From contig NZ_CP129238.1 in assembly GCF_030413595.1 (NCBI RefSeq), positions 3,162,001 to 3,226,000 on the forward strand: a stretch of 64,000 nucleotides of DNA, given 5' to 3'. This DNA comes from Planococcus liqunii. GTDB lineage: Bacteria; Bacillota; Bacilli; Bacillales_A; Planococcaceae. A model generated the notes under the pieces. It worked only from the letters and a program-made list of their open reading frames with translations, was not told the DNA's origin and searched no databases. Of this stretch, positions 27,962 to 62,482 are shown piece by piece. Positions within the stretch are counted from its first letter, which is position 1, and each line of letters starts with the position of its first letter. The position numbers and the translations under genes are program-made.

Positions 27962-28080
27962 TTATGAGTAGCCGTGGCAATTTTATGAGCGACCAGATCG
28001 GCTTTACGAGCGACTTTCATATTCCAATGAGCAACTTTCAGGATTTTACGAGCAACTAGAACCCTTTTATGATCAACTAA
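27962..28080. repeat. 21-bp periodic array, TTTTAYGAGCRACT core
   Basis: Six units. The ATGAG/ACGAG core begins at 27964, 27985, 28006, 28027, 28048 and 28069, a period of exactly 21 bp throughout. About 13 positions per unit are conserved and about 8 vary. No inverted symmetry, no ribosome binding site. A frame read through it gives heptad-like peptides but ends after 30 residues. Confidence 0.9.
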
Positions 28081-28092
28081 GCTTTTTCACTG

Positions 28093-28124
28093 CAAAAAAC
28101 CGGCCTGGAAAATTCCAGGCCGGT
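28093..28124 (-). terminator. speE-speB terminator
   Basis: Stem ACCGGCCTGGAA/TTCCAGGCCGGT with a minus-strand T run (28099-28094). It lies beyond the GC-rich repeats that follow the speB stop. Confidence 0.85.
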
Positions 28125-28146
28125 CTGATTATTAGCGGACGCATAA

Positions 28147-28409
28147 GGTGCTTCCACATTTCTTATTGTCCAGCTTCGGTGGCTAGCTCCTTGGGTCGTA
28201 AGCCACTTCGGCTGTGCGGCTGAAAACATGCCGCTTCGCCAAATCGTCTTACGCCGGTCGGAGCTGACCAGCCTCCTCCACTTTTCTTATTGTCCAGCTC
28301 CAGCACCTAGTCCCTCGAGTCGCTTCGGCCTTCCTGCAAATGGCAAAGGACGCCATTTACTGTAAGTCCTCCAGCGCTTATCGGGACTGGACAGGTGCTT
28401 CCACTTTTC
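28147..28409. repeat. GC-rich interspersed repeat, two units behind speB
   Basis: Unit 1 (about 28168-28286) shares GTAAGCCACTTCGGCTGTGC and GCCGCTTCGCCAA with the units at 55909-56045 and 56166-56290. Unit 2 (about 28291-28409) shares GTCCAGCTCCAGCACCTAG, CTCGAGTCGCTTCGG and a GCGCTT...GGACTGGACAGG end with 56046-56165. Each ends in CTTCCACTTTTCTTATT. The last unit touches the speB stop codon. Confidence 0.85.
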
Positions 28410-34294: not shown

Positions 34295-35044
34295 ATGAAT
34301 GAAGCTGCAATTACATTAGACGGCTGGTACGTGCTGCATGATTTCCGGTCCATGGACTGGGTATCGTGGAAAATGCTGACGGATGAAGAACGCCAATTCG
34401 CGATCGACGAATTCCAGGCATTTATGGACAAAGTGAACCAAGCTGATGAAAATAAAACAGGTGCACACGCATTGTATTCAATCGTTGGCCAAAAAGCCGA
34501 CTTGATGTTGATGTTACTTCGCGAAACGATGGACGAACTGCGTGAACTTGAAACGGAATACAATAAGCTGACATTGATCGCTTATACAGTTCCGACCTAT
34601 TCGTATGTATCGGTTGTCGAACTTTCCAACTACCTGGCTGGAAAATCAGACGAAGATCCATACCAGAACCCGCATGTCCGCGCGCGACTGTATCCTGAAC
34701 TTCAGCGTTCGCAGTACATCTGCTTCTACCCGATGGACAAACGGCGCGAAGGCGATGACAACTGGTACATGCTGCCAATGGACACACGCAAAGAATTGAT
34801 GCTGTCCCACGGGAAAATCGGCCGCAGCTATGCCGGCAAAGTAAAACAGATCATTTCCGGTTCTGTCGGCTTTGACGACTACGAATGGGGCGTTACTTTG
34901 TTCGCAGACGACGTTCTCCAATTCAAGAAATTGATCTACGAAATGCGCTTTGATGAAGTCAGCGCACGCTATGCAGAATTCGGTTCTTTCTACGTCGGCA
35001 CACGCCTGAACGCAGAACGCACAGCGAAATTCCTGGAAGTGTAA
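34295..35044 (+). CDS. hemQ: Coproheme decarboxylase
   Basis: Last enzyme of the coproporphyrin-dependent heme pathway of Gram-positives: oxidative decarboxylation of coproheme III to heme b. 249 aa, chlorite-dismutase-like fold. The catalytic Tyr145 (CFYPMDKRR) and the proximal heme ligand His172 ([12 protein letters not shown]) fall exactly at the positions known for Geobacillus/Listeria HemQ. The ATG has GGAG 11 nt upstream. Monocistronic with a terminator 4 nt after the stop. Confidence 0.97.
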
Positions 35045-35112: not shown

Positions 35113-35190
35113 TACTGTCCGCTTAAGGACAAATACTGTCCGGGATGTTTGAAATACTGTCCGCGTTCGTGTTTTACTGTCCTCGACGTA
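35113..35190. repeat. 21-bp periodic array, TACTGTCCG core
   Basis: TACTGTCC at 35113, 35134, 35155 and 35175 (steps 21, 21, 20). The remainder of each unit is variable. Directly followed by a second array with another core. Confidence 0.88.
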
Positions 35191-35227: not shown

Positions 35228-35305
35228 GCACCTCAAAGCGATAATTCCGCACCTCAACTCCCCTTGACTGCACCTCGCTGCTGCTTTTCCGCACCTCACC
35301 CCTAT
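35228..35305. repeat. 21-bp periodic array, CGCACCTCA core
   Basis: GCACCTCA/G at 35228, 35249, 35270 and 35291, all steps 21 bp. The core differs completely from the neighbouring TACTGTCC array, but the period is the same. Confidence 0.9.
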
Positions 35306-49549: not shown

Positions 49550-49655
49550 TAACCGAGCGTATTTTCTCGGTTACTGGTCGTATTTTTCGCGTTACCGGTC
49601 GTATTTTAACCTTTACTGGTCGCATTTTTCAGGTTACCGGTCGTATTCTCCGCCA
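49550..49655. repeat. 21-bp periodic array, TTACYGGTCGTATTTT core
   Basis: Five units; the CGTATT/CGCATT motif falls at 49558, 49579, 49600, 49621 and 49642, exactly 21 bp apart. Core of about 16 nt, variable part about 5 nt. It sits between two facing terminators, so it is probably not needed by either gene. Confidence 0.92.
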
Positions 49656-58279: not shown

Positions 58280-60439
58280 CTATTCGTTCTGCCCCAATAA
58301 TTTCTTTAATGCATCGGCCATTGCTGTATTCACCGGTGCCTCGTCCTGCTGCTTCAAGTATTTATTGACATCTTTTTTGTTCGCCTTCGATTGGCTGGCG
58401 TTGCGGCGCTTTTCAAAAGCTGACAGCTTCTCGCGATGGCCGCATTGGCAAGCGAACATTTTGCCTTCCCCTTCGCCGCGCATTTCCATGCGCTTGTGGC
58501 AGACCGGGCAGCGGGCATTTGTCTGAACCGCCACTTGTTTTTTATAGCCGCATTCGCGGTCCTGACAGACGTACATCTTCCCGCGTTTGCCGTTGACTTC
58601 CAGAAGCGGTTTGCCGCAATCCGGGCACGTTTTGCCGGTGATGTTGTCGTGCTTGAATTTCTTGTCGCTTTTCTTGATATCCGAAACCGATTTCTGGGCG
58701 AACGCAATCATCTCTTTCATGAACTGCTCTTTTTTCATCTGCCCTTTGGCGATTTTATTAAGCTGCTGCTCCCAGTCGGCTGTCAGTTTCGGCGATTTCA
58801 AATCTTCCGGCACGAGTTCAAGCAATTGGCGGCCTTTTGATGTAATCGTCAAGTCCTTGCCTTTTTTCTCAATCAGGAAGGTGTTGAATAATTTGTCGAT
58901 GACGTCGGCGCGCGTCGCCACGGTGCCAAGTCCTCCGGTTTCACCTAAGGTCTGGATCAATTCTTTCGATTCGCCTGCCATAAACTGCGCCGGGTTTTCC
59001 ATTGCACCGAGAAGGGTTCCTTCATTGAAGAATGCCGGCGGCTTCGTTTTGCCGTCTGTCAGCGCGATGCCTTTGATATGGAGCTTCTGCCCTTTTTCAA
59101 ACGGCGGCAATGTCGTATCGCCATCTTCTTCTTCGTCATTGTAGACGCGTTTCCAGCCATCGTTGCGGATCGTATTGCCTTTGGTCTGGAAGGTTTCTCC
59201 GCCCGCTGTGATTTTCACCATTGTCTGGTCGTATTCATACATCGGGTAAAATACCGCGAGGAAGCGTTTGACGATCATGTCGTATAATTTATGCTCTTTG
59301 TCCGACAAATTATGGAGCTGCGGCGTTTCTTCCGTCGGGATGATCGCATGGTGATCGCTTACTTTATTGTCATCGATCGTCCCTTTTTGCGGAGCGACCG
59401 GCGTTTTCAGAATCGTCGCTGCAAGCGCGCGGTAAGGCCCGACCTGCACCGCTTTAATGCGGTCTTTCAGCGTATCTTTCATGTCGGACGTCAAATGCTT
59501 CGAATCGGTCCGCGGATATGTGACAATCTTATAGCGCTCGTACAAACCCTGCAGCGTGTTGAGCGTTTCTTTCGCCGACCAGCTGTAGCGCTTGTAGGCT
59601 TCTTTTTGAAGTTCCGTCAAGTCGAATAAAGGCGGCGCCGGCTGTTTTTTGGGTGTAACTTTCACGTCGGTGATGGTGCCTTCATGCGTGTTGTTCAGCT
59701 TGCTGAACAACTTGTCGATCTTTTCTTTGTCAAACGACTGCGTCGAATTGCCGTCGGTCCAAGTGAATGCAGCCTGGTCCGTAATCGCCTGCATGCCGTA
59801 ATACGGCTTCGGCTGGAAATTGCGGATCTGCTGTTCGCGTTCGGCAATCATCGCAAGCGTCGGCGTCTGCACGCGCCCGGTCGACAATTGCGCATTGTAT
59901 TTCACCGTCAATGCACGCGTCGCATTGATGCCGACGACCCAGTCCGCTTCCGCACGGGCAACCGCTGCCTGGAATAAATTCTCGTAGGCTTTGCCGTCTT
60001 TCAGGTTATTGAAGCCGTCTTTAATCGCTTTGTCGGTGACAGACGAAATCCACAAACGCTTGATCGGCTTACGCGTTTTCGTTTTTTCCAAGATCCAGCG
60101 CGCGACAAGTTCCCCTTCGCGTCCAGCATCGGTTGCAATGATGACTTCATTGACGTCGCCTCTCGCTAATTGCGCTTTTACGGCATTGTATTGTTTCATC
60201 GACTGTTTGATTGGCACGAGCTTGAACGGTTCCGGAATGATTGGCAGATTCTCCATTTTCCATTCCTTGAAGTCGTTGTCGTATTGTTCCGGCTGCGCTT
60301 GCGTCACCAAATGGCCCAGCGCCCATGTGACGATATACTGTTTGCCTTCCAAAAATCCGTTGCCTTTTTGTGAACACCCGAGTACGCGTGCAATATCGCG
60401 CGCCACGGACGGTTTTTCTGCGAGTACTACTGATTTCAA
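58280..60439 (-). CDS. topB: DNA topoisomerase III
   Basis: Type IA topoisomerase, 719 aa. TOPRIM domain SVVLAEKPSVARDIARVLG with IATDAGREGELVAR. The active Tyr is in KIVTYPRTDSKHLT, and QLSTGRVQTPTLAMI and ETGGLGTVATRADVIDKLF are present. The C-terminus carries zinc-ribbon repeats (CPDCGKPLLEVNGKRGKMYVCQDRECGY, CPVCHKRMEMRGEGEGKMFACQCGHRE). TTG at 60439 with GAGGGTG 6 nt upstream is chosen over the ATG at 60454, which precedes the ribosome binding site. Confidence 0.96.
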   Translation of the reverse strand: MKSVVLAEKPSVARDIARVLGCSQKGNGFLEGKQYIVTWALGHLVTQAQPEQYDNDFKEWKMENLPIIPEPFKLVPIKQSMKQYNAVKAQLARGDVNEVIIATDAGREGELVARWILEKTKTRKPIKRLWISSVTDKAIKDGFNNLKDGKAYENLFQAAVARAEADWVVGINATRALTVKYNAQLSTGRVQTPTLAMIAEREQQIRNFQPKPYYGMQAITDQAAFTWTDGNSTQSFDKEKIDKLFSKLNNTHEGTITDVKVTPKKQPAPPLFDLTELQKEAYKRYSWSAKETLNTLQGLYERYKIVTYPRTDSKHLTSDMKDTLKDRIKAVQVGPYRALAATILKTPVAPQKGTIDDNKVSDHHAIIPTEETPQLHNLSDKEHKLYDMIVKRFLAVFYPMYEYDQTMVKITAGGETFQTKGNTIRNDGWKRVYNDEEEDGDTTLPPFEKGQKLHIKGIALTDGKTKPPAFFNEGTLLGAMENPAQFMAGESKELIQTLGETGGLGTVATRADVIDKLFNTFLIEKKGKDLTITSKGRQLLELVPEDLKSPKLTADWEQQLNKIAKGQMKKEQFMKEMIAFAQKSVSDIKKSDKKFKHDNITGKTCPDCGKPLLEVNGKRGKMYVCQDRECGYKKQVAVQTNARCPVCHKRMEMRGEGEGKMFACQCGHREKLSAFEKRRNASQSKANKKDVNKYLKQQDEAPVNTAMADALKKLLGQNE

Positions 60440-60510
60440 TTTATTCACCCTCATTTCGTATAGCGTATATTATAACATCTTCCGGTTTGGCTGGCTTTTC
60501 GTGGGGGTTG

Positions 60511-60580
60511 GAAAGTATTTGGTGGCAAAAAGAAAGTATTTCGCTGCTAAACGAAAGTAAAGTCTTTTAATAGAAAATAA
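60511..60580. repeat. 21-bp periodic array, GAAAGTATT core (left of the NERD gene)
   Basis: GAAAGTA at 60511, 60532 and 60553 (steps 21 and 21). The last unit runs on as GAAAGTAAAGTCTTTTAATA then GAAAATAA, which recurs right of the NERD gene (61689 onward) with two mismatches in 24 nt. Confidence 0.88.
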
Positions 60581-60593
60581 TTTCTAAAATGCC

Positions 60594-60622
60594 TTGCTGA
60601 CACGTTTCGGTTAAGCTATATT
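60594..60622 (+). promoter_or_regulatory. Promoter of the NERD-domain gene
   Basis: TTGCTG (60594-60599), 17-nt spacer, TATATT (60617-60622), about 30 nt ahead of the TTG start and just inside the left repeat array. Confidence 0.65.
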
Positions 60623-60651
60623 CAGCTTATAACGTCAAAGGAGTTGATTTA

Positions 60652-61638
60652 TTGATTCTCAAAAAACGCAGCGAACCACCCGAAATTTTTCAACTCGAAA
60701 GTTTGTTGCAAAGAATACCCTTTAACCACTCCCAATTCCCCCATTGGACAGAAAAGCTTCGTCGAATTACTGCCGGTTTTCACGGTGAACAACGAGTTGA
60801 TTCCTTTTGGCAAGAAATCACCCTTCCCATCCCCCATTATCTTATCCATGATTTATTTATTAAAAAAAAGCACTCCACTCATCAAATGGATACCATACTT
60901 GTGACCAGCCGCTTTATTTTAGTTCTTGAAATCAAAAGTATTTCTGGGCTACTTCATTTCGACCAGCAAACGCGGCAATTCTCCCGAACCAATAAAGACG
61001 GCAGCATCGACGGCATGCGAAATCCCGATGACCAAGTACGGCGCCACGAGAAATGGCTAGAACAATTTTTAACCGAGCGGAAATTAGATCTGCCGGTCAT
61101 CGGGGCCATTGTCTTTGCCTATCCTTCTGCGGTTATCCAATCGAAAGCCGGCAATCGCATTGTGATTCAATCATCGGGATTGCCCCATTTGCTGGACGAG
61201 CTGCTAGCATCCTACCAGCAGGATATACTTTCCAAAGCCTTGACCAAGAAACTAGCAGTCCAGCTTTTAAAACTTCATTCGATAAAACAATTGCCAGAAC
61301 TAATATTGCCGCCAGACTATTTTAGAGGAGTTTTTTGTCCTAAATGCCAGAAGGGACAACTGCATTACTACTGGAGAAAATGGGCATGTAAAAGTTGTTC
61401 TTTTTCTGACCCTGCTGCTTACCTCACAGCAATTGAACAATATCGTGTTTTATGCGGTCCTACTATTACTAACCGACAATTTCGAGATTTTATTGATTTA
61501 AAAGATCCCGCAGTTACTTCGAAATTGTTGAAAGATGCCAAAATGCCGTTTGAAGGCAGTTATAAAGATCGCGTTTATCTTATTCCAGGAAAAAATAGAG
61601 GTACAGAAAGTAATTCAATAGATTTTGAAAGTATATAA
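60652..61638 (+). CDS. NERD-domain protein with C-terminal zinc ribbon
   Basis: 328 aa. The N-terminal NERD domain (about residues 38-150) is a nuclease-related fold: GFHGEQRVDSFWQEI with the acidic Glu, then QMDTILVTSRFILVLEIKSISG with D-x(n)-ExK catalytic spacing, and NPDDQVRRHEKWLEQFL. A zinc ribbon follows near residue 229 (FCPKCQKGQLHYYWRKWACKSC) and a helical C-terminus. Often linked with DNA handling, plasmids or defence; no experimental role here. The start is TTG at 60652 with AAAGGAG 9 nt upstream. Its last ~11 codons lie in a 21-bp repeat array, and a sister array flanks the 5' side. It looks AT-richer than neighbours. Confidence 0.88.
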   Translation: MILKKRSEPPEIFQLESLLQRIPFNHSQFPHWTEKLRRITAGFHGEQRVDSFWQEITLPIPHYLIHDLFIKKKHSTHQMDTILVTSRFILVLEIKSISGLLHFDQQTRQFSRTNKDGSIDGMRNPDDQVRRHEKWLEQFLTERKLDLPVIGAIVFAYPSAVIQSKAGNRIVIQSSGLPHLLDELLASYQQDILSKALTKKLAVQLLKLHSIKQLPELILPPDYFRGVFCPKCQKGQLHYYWRKWACKSCSFSDPAAYLTAIEQYRVLCGPTITNRQFRDFIDLKDPAVTSKLLKDAKMPFEGSYKDRVYLIPGKNRGTESNSIDFESI

Positions 61639-61718
61639 CTAGTTTAGAAAGTATTCTGAGCCAAATAGAAAGTATTGAAGAGAAACCAGAAAGTAAATCC
61701 TTTTAATAGAAACAATAA
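61606..61718. repeat. 21-bp periodic array, GAAAGTATT core (right of the NERD gene)
   Basis: GAAAGTA at 61606, 61627, 61647, 61668 and 61689 (steps 21, 20, 21, 21). The first two units are inside the NERD coding sequence and encode its C-terminal residues. The last unit ends like the left array (positions 61689-61712 against 60553-60576, 22 of 24 identical). Confidence 0.88.
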
Positions 61719-61752
61719 TAAGAAAACTTGATTTTATTTCCAGATAGAAACT

Positions 61753-61780
61753 AAAAAAACCTCCCGCGGGAGGTTTTTCT
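61753..61780. terminator. Terminator behind the flavin reductase gene
   Basis: AAAACCTCCCG/CGGGAGGTTTT stem with A and T runs, 9 nt beyond the minus-strand stop. It can also serve the NERD gene. Confidence 0.85.
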
Positions 61781-61788
61781 TCTGCTAT

Positions 61789-62352
61789 TTAAGGATTATC
61801 AATCGTTTCCTTCGATAAATTCTGGCTCATTTCAGCGTATTGGACGAAAACGCGCGCCAATTCGCGCAGGCGGTCGTGGACGTCTTCGTTGATGATGGTG
61901 TTCGTATCATCGAAATGGCTCGTGTGCGTGTAGACGTAGTTCGGTGTCACCAGGCAGCGGAAGTAGTCGAGAATCGGCTTCAGCTGGTTTTCGATGACGA
62001 GATGGTGCTGATAAGTGCCGCCGTTTGCGACGATTGATACTGGTTTGTAGCGCATCGTGCGCGGGTGCAGCATATCAAACGTGTTTTTTAGGACGCCCGG
62101 AATCGAGCCTTGGAAAATCGGTGTGGCGATGATGTAGCCATCCGCGTTTTCAAAGCGATGGACGATTTCCTGCATGTCTTTGTTGTATTCGCCGAGCGGG
62201 CGGCCGTCGACAAACTGGTGCTCGTAATCAGCCAGGCTTAACATTACAAGCTCCATATCCGGATTAAAATCTTTGATATAGGTTTGCACCTGTTCCAAAA
62301 TGGCTCCTGTTTTTCTTCCAATAATTGTGCCGTCCACTAATAAAATCTTCAT
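61789..62352 (-). CDS. NADPH-dependent FMN reductase family protein
   Basis: 187 aa flavodoxin-like fold. MKILLVDGTIIGRKTGAILEQV binds the FMN phosphate; ADGYIIATPIFQGSIPGVLKNTFDML and VANGGTYQHHLVIENQLKPIL are the flavin and dimer regions of the SsuE/azoreductase-like group. Likely reduces FMN, quinones or similar with NAD(P)H; the physiological substrate is unknown. The start at 62352 has GGAGGA about 8 nt upstream; the longer frame is unsupported. Monocistronic. Confidence 0.88.
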   Translation of the reverse strand: MKILLVDGTIIGRKTGAILEQVQTYIKDFNPDMELVMLSLADYEHQFVDGRPLGEYNKDMQEIVHRFENADGYIIATPIFQGSIPGVLKNTFDMLHPRTMRYKPVSIVANGGTYQHHLVIENQLKPILDYFRCLVTPNYVYTHTSHFDDTNTIINEDVHDRLRELARVFVQYAEMSQNLSKETIDNP

Positions 62353-62482
62353 AAGACGAATCCTCCTCAAATGCGTATCTGCTTGGCTATAAAGCGAACA
62401 ACTCATAGCCTTGTTGTCTTTATCATAGCAAACCAGGCTGCTAAATACGCATCGATACGCTTATTCGGGAAAGATTTCATTC

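Follow-up and report, generated by a model that had tools for sequence, protein, structure and literature searches.

We studied a 64,000-nucleotide stretch of the Planococcus liqunii chromosome (the window; bases 3162001-3226000 of a single-contig 3.96-Mb genome, here called G000), in which the gene of a protein with a NERD domain, a zinc ribbon, and a winged helix lies between two arrays of 21-bp repeats. The gene (60652..61638, plus strand) encodes 328 amino acids from a TTG start, with GGAG at 60640-60643. On its 5' side, the left array (60511..60576, plus strand) consists of three 21-bp units with GAAAGTA cores at 60511, 60532, and 60553, and its last part reads AAAGTCTTTTAATAGAAA. On the 3' side, the right array (61606..61712, plus strand) consists of five units with cores at 61606, 61627, 61647, 61668, and 61689; units 1 and 2 lie inside the coding sequence, and the last part reads AAATCCTTTTAATAGAAA. 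A terminator-like hairpin (61753..61780) separates this cassette from a flavin-reductase-like gene on the right (61789-62406, minus strand). The left neighbor (58280-60454, minus strand) is presumably topB, a name adopted from an earlier sequence-only reading of the window.

The GAAAGTA cores step by 20-21 bp, all on the same strand, and the longer core GAAAGTATT gave 6 matches in the window against 0.48 expected, a number reached in none of 100 shuffles; the array detector found no arrays of this kind in ten shuffled versions of the window. The sequence-only reading had described arrays of one core on both sides of the gene, and this was borne out, with three copies on the left and five on the right. 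The nearly identical 24-nt ends (60553-60576 and 61689-61712; 22 of 24 identical, 1136 bp apart) were likewise found, and the last residues of the protein, ESNSIDFESI, are indeed encoded by the right array. A promoter placed just inside the left array was not recovered: a consensus scan of 60440-61800 gave 4 promoter-like sites where 3.2 were expected, and the plus strand has none from the left array to the start of the gene. A three-copy TTTGCCG match of the detector within topB (58586-58637) was taken as chance in coding sequence, and Rfam gave no match across 60300-61900.

The NERD domain (60775..61116, plus strand; residues 42-155), named as such from the sequence alone, matched PF08378 with an E value of 3e-17 and 63.6 bits against a Pfam gathering score of 22.1, and a structural model and a fold search predict for it a PD-(D/E)XK-like fold. 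E46, D80, E93, and K95 are invariant in six paralogues and in a 66-sequence alignment, and are presumed to be the active-site residues of the nuclease-like fold. The zinc ribbon (61336..61398, plus strand) follows the pattern C229-x2-C232 ... C246-x2-C249, with all four cysteines invariant in the six paralogues. The C-terminal domain (61420..61590, plus strand; residues 257-313) is predicted to be a winged helix from the model and from fold matches to such domains. Among 17 solved structures matched by sequence, 16 covered a 20-odd-residue stretch of designed trefoil proteins and were judged spurious. The phage and plasmid collections (tblastn) gave one weak partial match each, and a viral-contig scan confirmed none.

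G000 contains seven full or near-full homologues of this three-domain protein and one distant NERD protein; a profile search gave nine matches at 1e-3. Arrays with distinct cores adjoin five of the seven: GAAAGTATT at the topB locus (3222652), GGTCGTATTT at 2862357, AGTTGCTCGTA at 3504157, CGCACCTC at 1554301, and GTTTCACTATTTT at 3042445. The homologue near 3112720 has a weaker three-copy array, and no adjoining array was detected at 3527954. A NERD protein at G000:2943762-2944187 (L087) lacks both a winged helix and an adjoining array; its zinc finger looks topoisomerase-like. The family members with arrays are helix-turn-helix proteins whose repeated sites lie next to their genes and in other places; the genes are chromosomal, with presence/absence polymorphism and paralogues of different core, and the winged helix is fused to an apparently intact nuclease domain.

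The window contains four other intergenic arrays, none beside a NERD gene; three have the core of a NERD gene elsewhere in G000, and one has the core of a NERD gene in relatives. The array at 28003..28057 (minus strand; core AGTTGCTC(GTA)) matches the core beside the gene at 3504157, that at 35228..35297 (plus strand; (C)GCACCTC, four copies) the core beside the gene at 1554301, and that at 49558..49647 (plus strand; GTCGTATTTT) the cores around the gene at 2862357. The fourth (35113..35182, minus strand; GGACAGTA, four copies) has the core of the topB-locus NERD gene in G023, G008, and other relatives, and no NERD gene with this core was identified in G000. The statement that each array has its own core holds within the window; in the rest of the genome, these cores recur. 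Adjoining the 28003 array, TTCTTATTGTCCAGCT occurs twice at 28120-28300 and resembles another dispersed repeat type. A possible second NERD site at similar chromosome positions (L065, L068, L072, L075, L077, L078) also differs in core between genomes: CGCACCTC in G000, GATCATAGA in G023 and G024, GCAAACAAC in G008, CAAATAAC in G018, and none detected in G014. In G000, the one genome in which its neighbors were read, this site lies between what we take, from a look at the sequences, to be minD-like and rplU-like genes.

The association is not confined to one genome. Flanking arrays of ~21 bp, each with its own core, were found at 40 of 47 sampled loci of this architecture in the genus (29 of the 47, L011-L039, from the best-match list of the topB-locus orthologue search, so that topB-locus genes dominate the census), at 22 of 26 loci in other genera of the family, and at 1 of 4 loci from other Bacilli families. 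The controls gave 1 of 20 for NERD-only genes of other classes (2 of 20 with a wider flank) and 1 of 235 and 0 of 130 for shuffles; cruder earlier counts had been 18/24 in the family, and 1/4, 2/3, and 2/20. In 400 kb of evenly spaced samples, a strict detector found one array and a loose detector four, two of these beside NERD genes (L058, L056). The profile at 1e-3 matched 73 of 81 family genomes and 18 of 19 genera, with at most 11 matches per genome. Among 299 phylum-wide genomes, 22 had a match at 1e-15; it was full-length in four, and in the other 18 it extended little or not at all beyond the NERD part and did not include the winged helix. The topB-locus orthologue also occurs in the named relatives Planococcus sp. 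CPCC 101016, P. wigleyi, and P. halocryophilus. At L164, L165, L173, and L181, which belong to other genera or families, the arrays next to NERD genes run to 18-28 units, and at L173 a ~103-bp block containing one array is itself repeated eight times.

The presence of the gene and that of the arrays were compared in 46 genus genomes, in which arrays were counted as exact-pattern matches, hence as a lower bound, and orthologues at 55% identity or more. Pairs spaced 21 bp occurred in 26 genomes for GACAGTATT (reversed-pattern control, 0 hits) and in 19 for GAAAGTATT (1 hit), and CGCACCT pairs in 26 (4 hits in all). Counting flanking arrays, GACAG or GAAAG arrays are present in every one of the 23 genomes with a topB-locus orthologue, and 16 of the 23 genomes without one have neither; gene presence correlates with abundance of the cognate repeats (23/23 versus 7/23). 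G006, G008, G009, G011, G027, and G045 have 21-41 GACAG matches, the highest number in any genome being 41, and no GAAAG match; G002 and G016 have 23 and 32 GAAAG matches and no GACAG match. Mixed genomes (GACAG/GAAAG) include G010 (9/25), G021 (16/13), and G000 (8/3). The topB array is of GACAG type in G017, G021, G029, and G039, yet 8-15 GAAAG matches occur elsewhere in these genomes; a second NERD gene or a former core are candidate causes.

Variation of the core follows that of the protein. A clear core was present in 21 orthologues, GAAAG in 8 and GACAG in 13; G020 (mixed GAAAG/GATAG core), G039 (truncated C-terminus), and the L034-L039 family stood outside this test. Only columns 287 (T, A, or V versus S) and 304 (Y versus F), of 320, separate GAAAG from GACAG orthologues without exception. 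In the model, residue 287 would lie within the recognition helix (286-295) and residue 304 in the wing. A tree of the nuclease half shows at least four switches of the core on supported branches, and residue and core matched in 4 of 4 independent pairs. G010 joins a nuclease half like that of G029 and G017 to a zinc ribbon and a winged helix like those of G003 and G026, and its downstream array is also of the G003 and G026 kind; the domains appear to have been swapped naturally, and the core goes with the C-terminus. In a paralogous family, residue 287 is T in G012, G007, G004, and G024, with GCRTATT cores, versus S in G000 (2862357), G044, and G037, with mostly TCGTATT cores. This second residue-core pair is only a hint, because G024 is mixed and the G044 and G037 arrays are degenerate.

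The same correspondence extends to distant arrays. Eight orthologous dispersed intergenic loci were hand-picked among those with flank matches (the multi-array groups L113/L116/L117/L136 and L114/L120/L121/L141 were not counted), and in these the third base of GACAGTA is C in 55 of 55 cores of the F304 genomes G006 and G008, versus A in 47 and T in 2 of 49 cores of the Y304 genomes G002 and G016. In all fetched regions, this base is C in 89 cores and A in 1 for G006 (14 regions), C in 30 for G008 (6 regions), A in 34, C in 3, and T in 1 for G002 (7 regions), and A in 50, C in 3, and T in 2 for G016 (11 regions). Partial similarity of the spacers at loci A and F suggests that existing arrays were altered in place. 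Pairing and coevolution of the NERD protein with the arrays are well supported.

The dispersed arrays have a common architecture. Neighboring cores are 21 bp apart in 243 and 20 bp apart in 42 of 300 pairs within 64 bp. Among arrays of at least four units, flanking arrays included, five units are commonest (12 of 18 in G006, 8 of 12 in G016, 5 of 6 in G002). Many end at the 3' side in TATCCAATTAACTGGAAA or a motif near it, which is partly palindromic by eye; cores such as GAAAGTATT are not palindromic. Spacers at the same position are more alike across loci than in permutations in G006 (0 of 300) and G016 (5 of 300), and not significantly so in G002 (67 of 300). The shared end motif and the position-matched spacers are as expected of copies of one multi-unit element. 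From about 1 to 16 dispersed loci were found per genome where counted (GAAAG in G000, GACAG in G006). In five pairs of orthologous dispersed arrays of G006 and G008, four of whose G008 regions were chosen because arrays were present, cores agree at 251 of 260 positions (96.5%), spacers at 245 of 318 (77%), and flanks at 1668 of 1846 (90.4%).

At the topB locus, the gene and its arrays are exchanged together. The topB protein is 98% identical to that of G000 in G007 and 97% in G004, and the DNA of these genomes aligns with G000 up to position 60512, in the left array (93% identity), and again from 61753, the start of the hairpin (97%). Between these two boundaries, G007 and G004 carry another NERD gene (37% and 36% identical) with GCGTATT-type arrays. 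In G030, the gene is missing here and a GAAAG array of four units, three with an exact core, is present, and G025 has a decayed GCGTATT relic; in the remaining NERD-free topB intervals inspected, no array relic was seen by eye. In G019 and G018 (L227, L228), which have no NERD gene here, an unrelated insertion of ~370 bases, partly GC-rich, lies beside the terminator. Across the genus, comparison of the topB-to-flavin-reductase intervals found the NERD gene absent, exchanged, or replaced in many genomes.

The NERD gene at 2862357 lies between a gene that we take, from its sequence, to encode an RND transporter and a neighbor gene that was sought in 14 relatives and was present in 12, all of which were examined. 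None of the 12 has a NERD gene at this flank, and 10 have an array: GAGCRTATT-type in G007, G004, G012, and G024, TGGTCGTATTT in G023, and CGCACC in G025, G037, G044, G006, and G016; the flank is different or decayed in G030 and G032. By eye, the outermost units of the arrays in G000 are similar to the first and the last unit of the G023 array, which has no gene. Insertion of the NERD gene in G000 would be the simplest reading, the alternative being loss in all the others. The suspicion that the interval behaves as a unit is thus supported by the exchange at 60512/61753, by the G030 array without a gene, and by this sister gene at a gene-free array site; the view of the arrays as its mere boundaries is not, since these cores are also found at many sites without a gene and coevolve with the protein.

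Array sites without a gene also vary. Downstream of the gene at 34295-35044, presumably hemQ-like judging from its sequence, 10 of the 11 relatives found, all but G044, were compared with G000. G000 has four GACAG and four CGCACC units, G023 four GACAG units, G006 eleven GACAG units in the stretch read, G016 five CGCACC and five GAAAG units, G012, G020, and G038 CGCACC only, G037 CGCACC together with a GACAG array in partial decay, and G024 almost nothing. GACAG cores are altered in 3 of 4 copies in G007 and in 0 of 3 in G004, neither of which has a cognate gene, and in 0 of 4 in G023, which has one; for core decay after gene loss, the site gives a mixed first hint.

We consider it probable, although by no means certain, that the NERD gene and its cognate arrays are a two-part element that resembles the REP/RAYT systems (repetitive extragenic palindromic sequences with their REP-associated tyrosine transposases) and is built of unrelated parts. 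The protein would be a sequence-specific DNA-binding and probably DNA-cutting enzyme, made of the PD-(D/E)XK-like domain, the zinc ribbon, and the winged helix, and the ~21-bp arrays would be its cognate sites, the winged helix reading a core of ~9 bp. As a repeat of 20-21 bp is close to two helical turns, several protomers may be aligned along the same side of the double helix. The gene-free intergenic copies would have their cores kept in register with the specificity of the protein, and recombination at arrays would allow the gene-plus-arrays unit to be exchanged, inserted into an existing array, or lost, leaving one array behind. The bolder proposal that, after a change of specificity, the protein itself rewrites the arrays genome-wide, cutting and array-templated repair pushing every core to the new sequence in place of site-by-site selection by the host, seems to us improbable.

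What the comparison of genomes shows is the pairing, cores and winged helices that vary together, the exchange of cassettes, the polymorphism of array sites with and without a gene, and the conservation of cores above spacers; binding, cutting, and movement, and likewise cutting or nicking at arrays as the driver, the direction of gain or loss, and the route by which arrays spread, are what we infer from it. Several observations weigh against the two-part element. The four independent residue-core pairs are too few to reach p 0.05, and an array adjoining the C-terminus may travel with it by linkage, which dispersed arrays could not. Two comparisons favor our interpretation by their design, as the eight dispersed loci were located with exact core patterns and the cores in the G006/G008 comparison were set by exact match in G006 alone; array sites were common to these two genomes in 5 of 5 compared pairs, so turnover looks slow. 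GACAG or GAAAG arrays persist in 7 of the 23 genomes without the orthologue; in six of these, the topB locus carries a second NERD family, and the remaining genome is G030, with its array and no gene. G004, also without a cognate gene, retains three intact GACAG cores (0 of 3 altered) at the 34295-35044 site. G002 and G016 share one three-copy GACAGTA array, outside the eight loci, that the longer pattern missed. Off-type matches are present in GACAG-type G017, G021, G029, and G039 (15, 13, 9, and 8 GAAAG) and in GAAAG-type G000, G003, G010, and G034 (8, 10, 9, and 4 GACAG), and could come from former cores or from other NERD genes. Finally, by the criterion used, no array was present at 7 of 47 genus, 4 of 26 other-genus, and 3 of 4 other-Bacilli-family NERD loci.

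Homing endonuclease genes lie inside their own recognition sites, and cutting of the gene-free site drives their copying. A similar NERD enzyme would cut arrays that lack the gene, and repair would copy in the gene-plus-array unit, the dispersed arrays being mainly targets; this could also be the mechanism by which the two-part element proposed above moves. One NERD gene, flanked by cognate sequence, sits within an array that has no gene in relatives, the exchange boundaries are the left array and a point just beyond the right array, and the predicted fold keeps its presumed active-site residues. The target, however, is a multi-copy dispersed array, and many cognate arrays in the same genome remain gene-free, although a homing enzyme should attack them. 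As a full explanation, this is possible and we hold it only tentatively.

Alternatively, the protein might bind and organize the chromosome, with a function for the host in chromosome organization, transcription ends, or repair; host selection would then keep the arrays, and the gene would move occasionally by ordinary homologous recombination between them. The conservation of gene-free cores above spacers and flanks fits such a role, as do array sites shared by related species, the position of 14 of 32 dispersed loci between convergent genes (in a rough call of open reading frames), and the absence from G000 of a visible close second NERD gene of the same core. A host function fits less well with a gene that is absent, exchanged, or replaced in many genomes of the genus and with single sites that bear arrays of unrelated cores in different species, and we regard it as unlikely.

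That the gene serves anti-phage defense in an exchangeable island, with the arrays as recombination handles or self-marks, is very improbable. Alleles are exchanged at one locus, and the NERD part is weakly similar to PglW (the best PADLOC match; E 2e-4, 17.3 bits, over the NERD part) and MAD6 (the best NCBIfam match; 25.7 bits against a cut-off of 460). The curated models of PADLOC and NCBIfam gave no assignment, so the defense setting raised by the sequence-only reading was not borne out; the neighbors are topB and a flavin reductase, and dispersed, coevolving arrays would be unexpected. Plain tandem repeats arising by slippage beside the gene by chance are hardly credible: the arrays are tandem, and very long in some other genera, but spacers vary while cores persist, the association is with one protein architecture, the core tracks protein residues at distant loci, and chance repeats were ruled out by the shuffles and the flank-census controls.

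REP/RAYT systems offer the closest likeness. As described in one report (PMC2817692), their repeats flank a protein gene, are dispersed outside genes, vary in abundance with the gene, and coevolve with the protein; the same report describes an IS200/IS605 (HUH/Y1)-related transposase and palindromic REPs, two of which flank the gene in inverted orientation, usually with more than 100 copies per genome. The NERD gene shares the flanking repeats, the extragenic dispersed copies, the abundance tied to the gene, and the coevolution. In contrast, its enzyme is predicted to be PD-(D/E)XK-like, and Pfam gives NERD only, not an IS200/IS605-type domain; its repeats are non-palindromic direct arrays of ~21 bp in the same orientation on both sides of the gene, at about 1 to 16 dispersed loci and not in more than 100 copies. 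As an enzyme of IS200/IS605 type, palindromes, and inverted flanks are defining features that the NERD pair lacks, we do not assign it to REP/RAYT. With regard to transposons and insertion sequences, the flanking arrays are direct; inverted ends and target-site duplications were viewed by eye only. With NERD proteins (PF08378) at large, the protein shares its N-terminal domain; NERD-only loci, without the winged helix, had a flanking array in 1 of the 20 cases of the census. No earlier link of NERD proteins with such arrays was found in open-access papers, subscription journals and bioRxiv being mostly outside that search. Neither the protein nor the repeats belong to a known pair.

If our interpretation is correct, a second, independently built solution exists to the role played by REP/RAYT, in which a protein gene and a set of non-coding repeats dispersed through the genome belong together. 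This would explain a class of intergenic 21-bp arrays in one bacterial family and allow many arrays to be assigned to a protein. The natural pairs of protein and DNA core, with their covariation of one base and two residues, would provide material for studying how a winged helix reads DNA, and a joint switch of specificity in dispersed repeats and their proteins would become directly testable. Should the proteins themselves rewrite the cores, this would be genome-wide concerted evolution directed by one nuclease.
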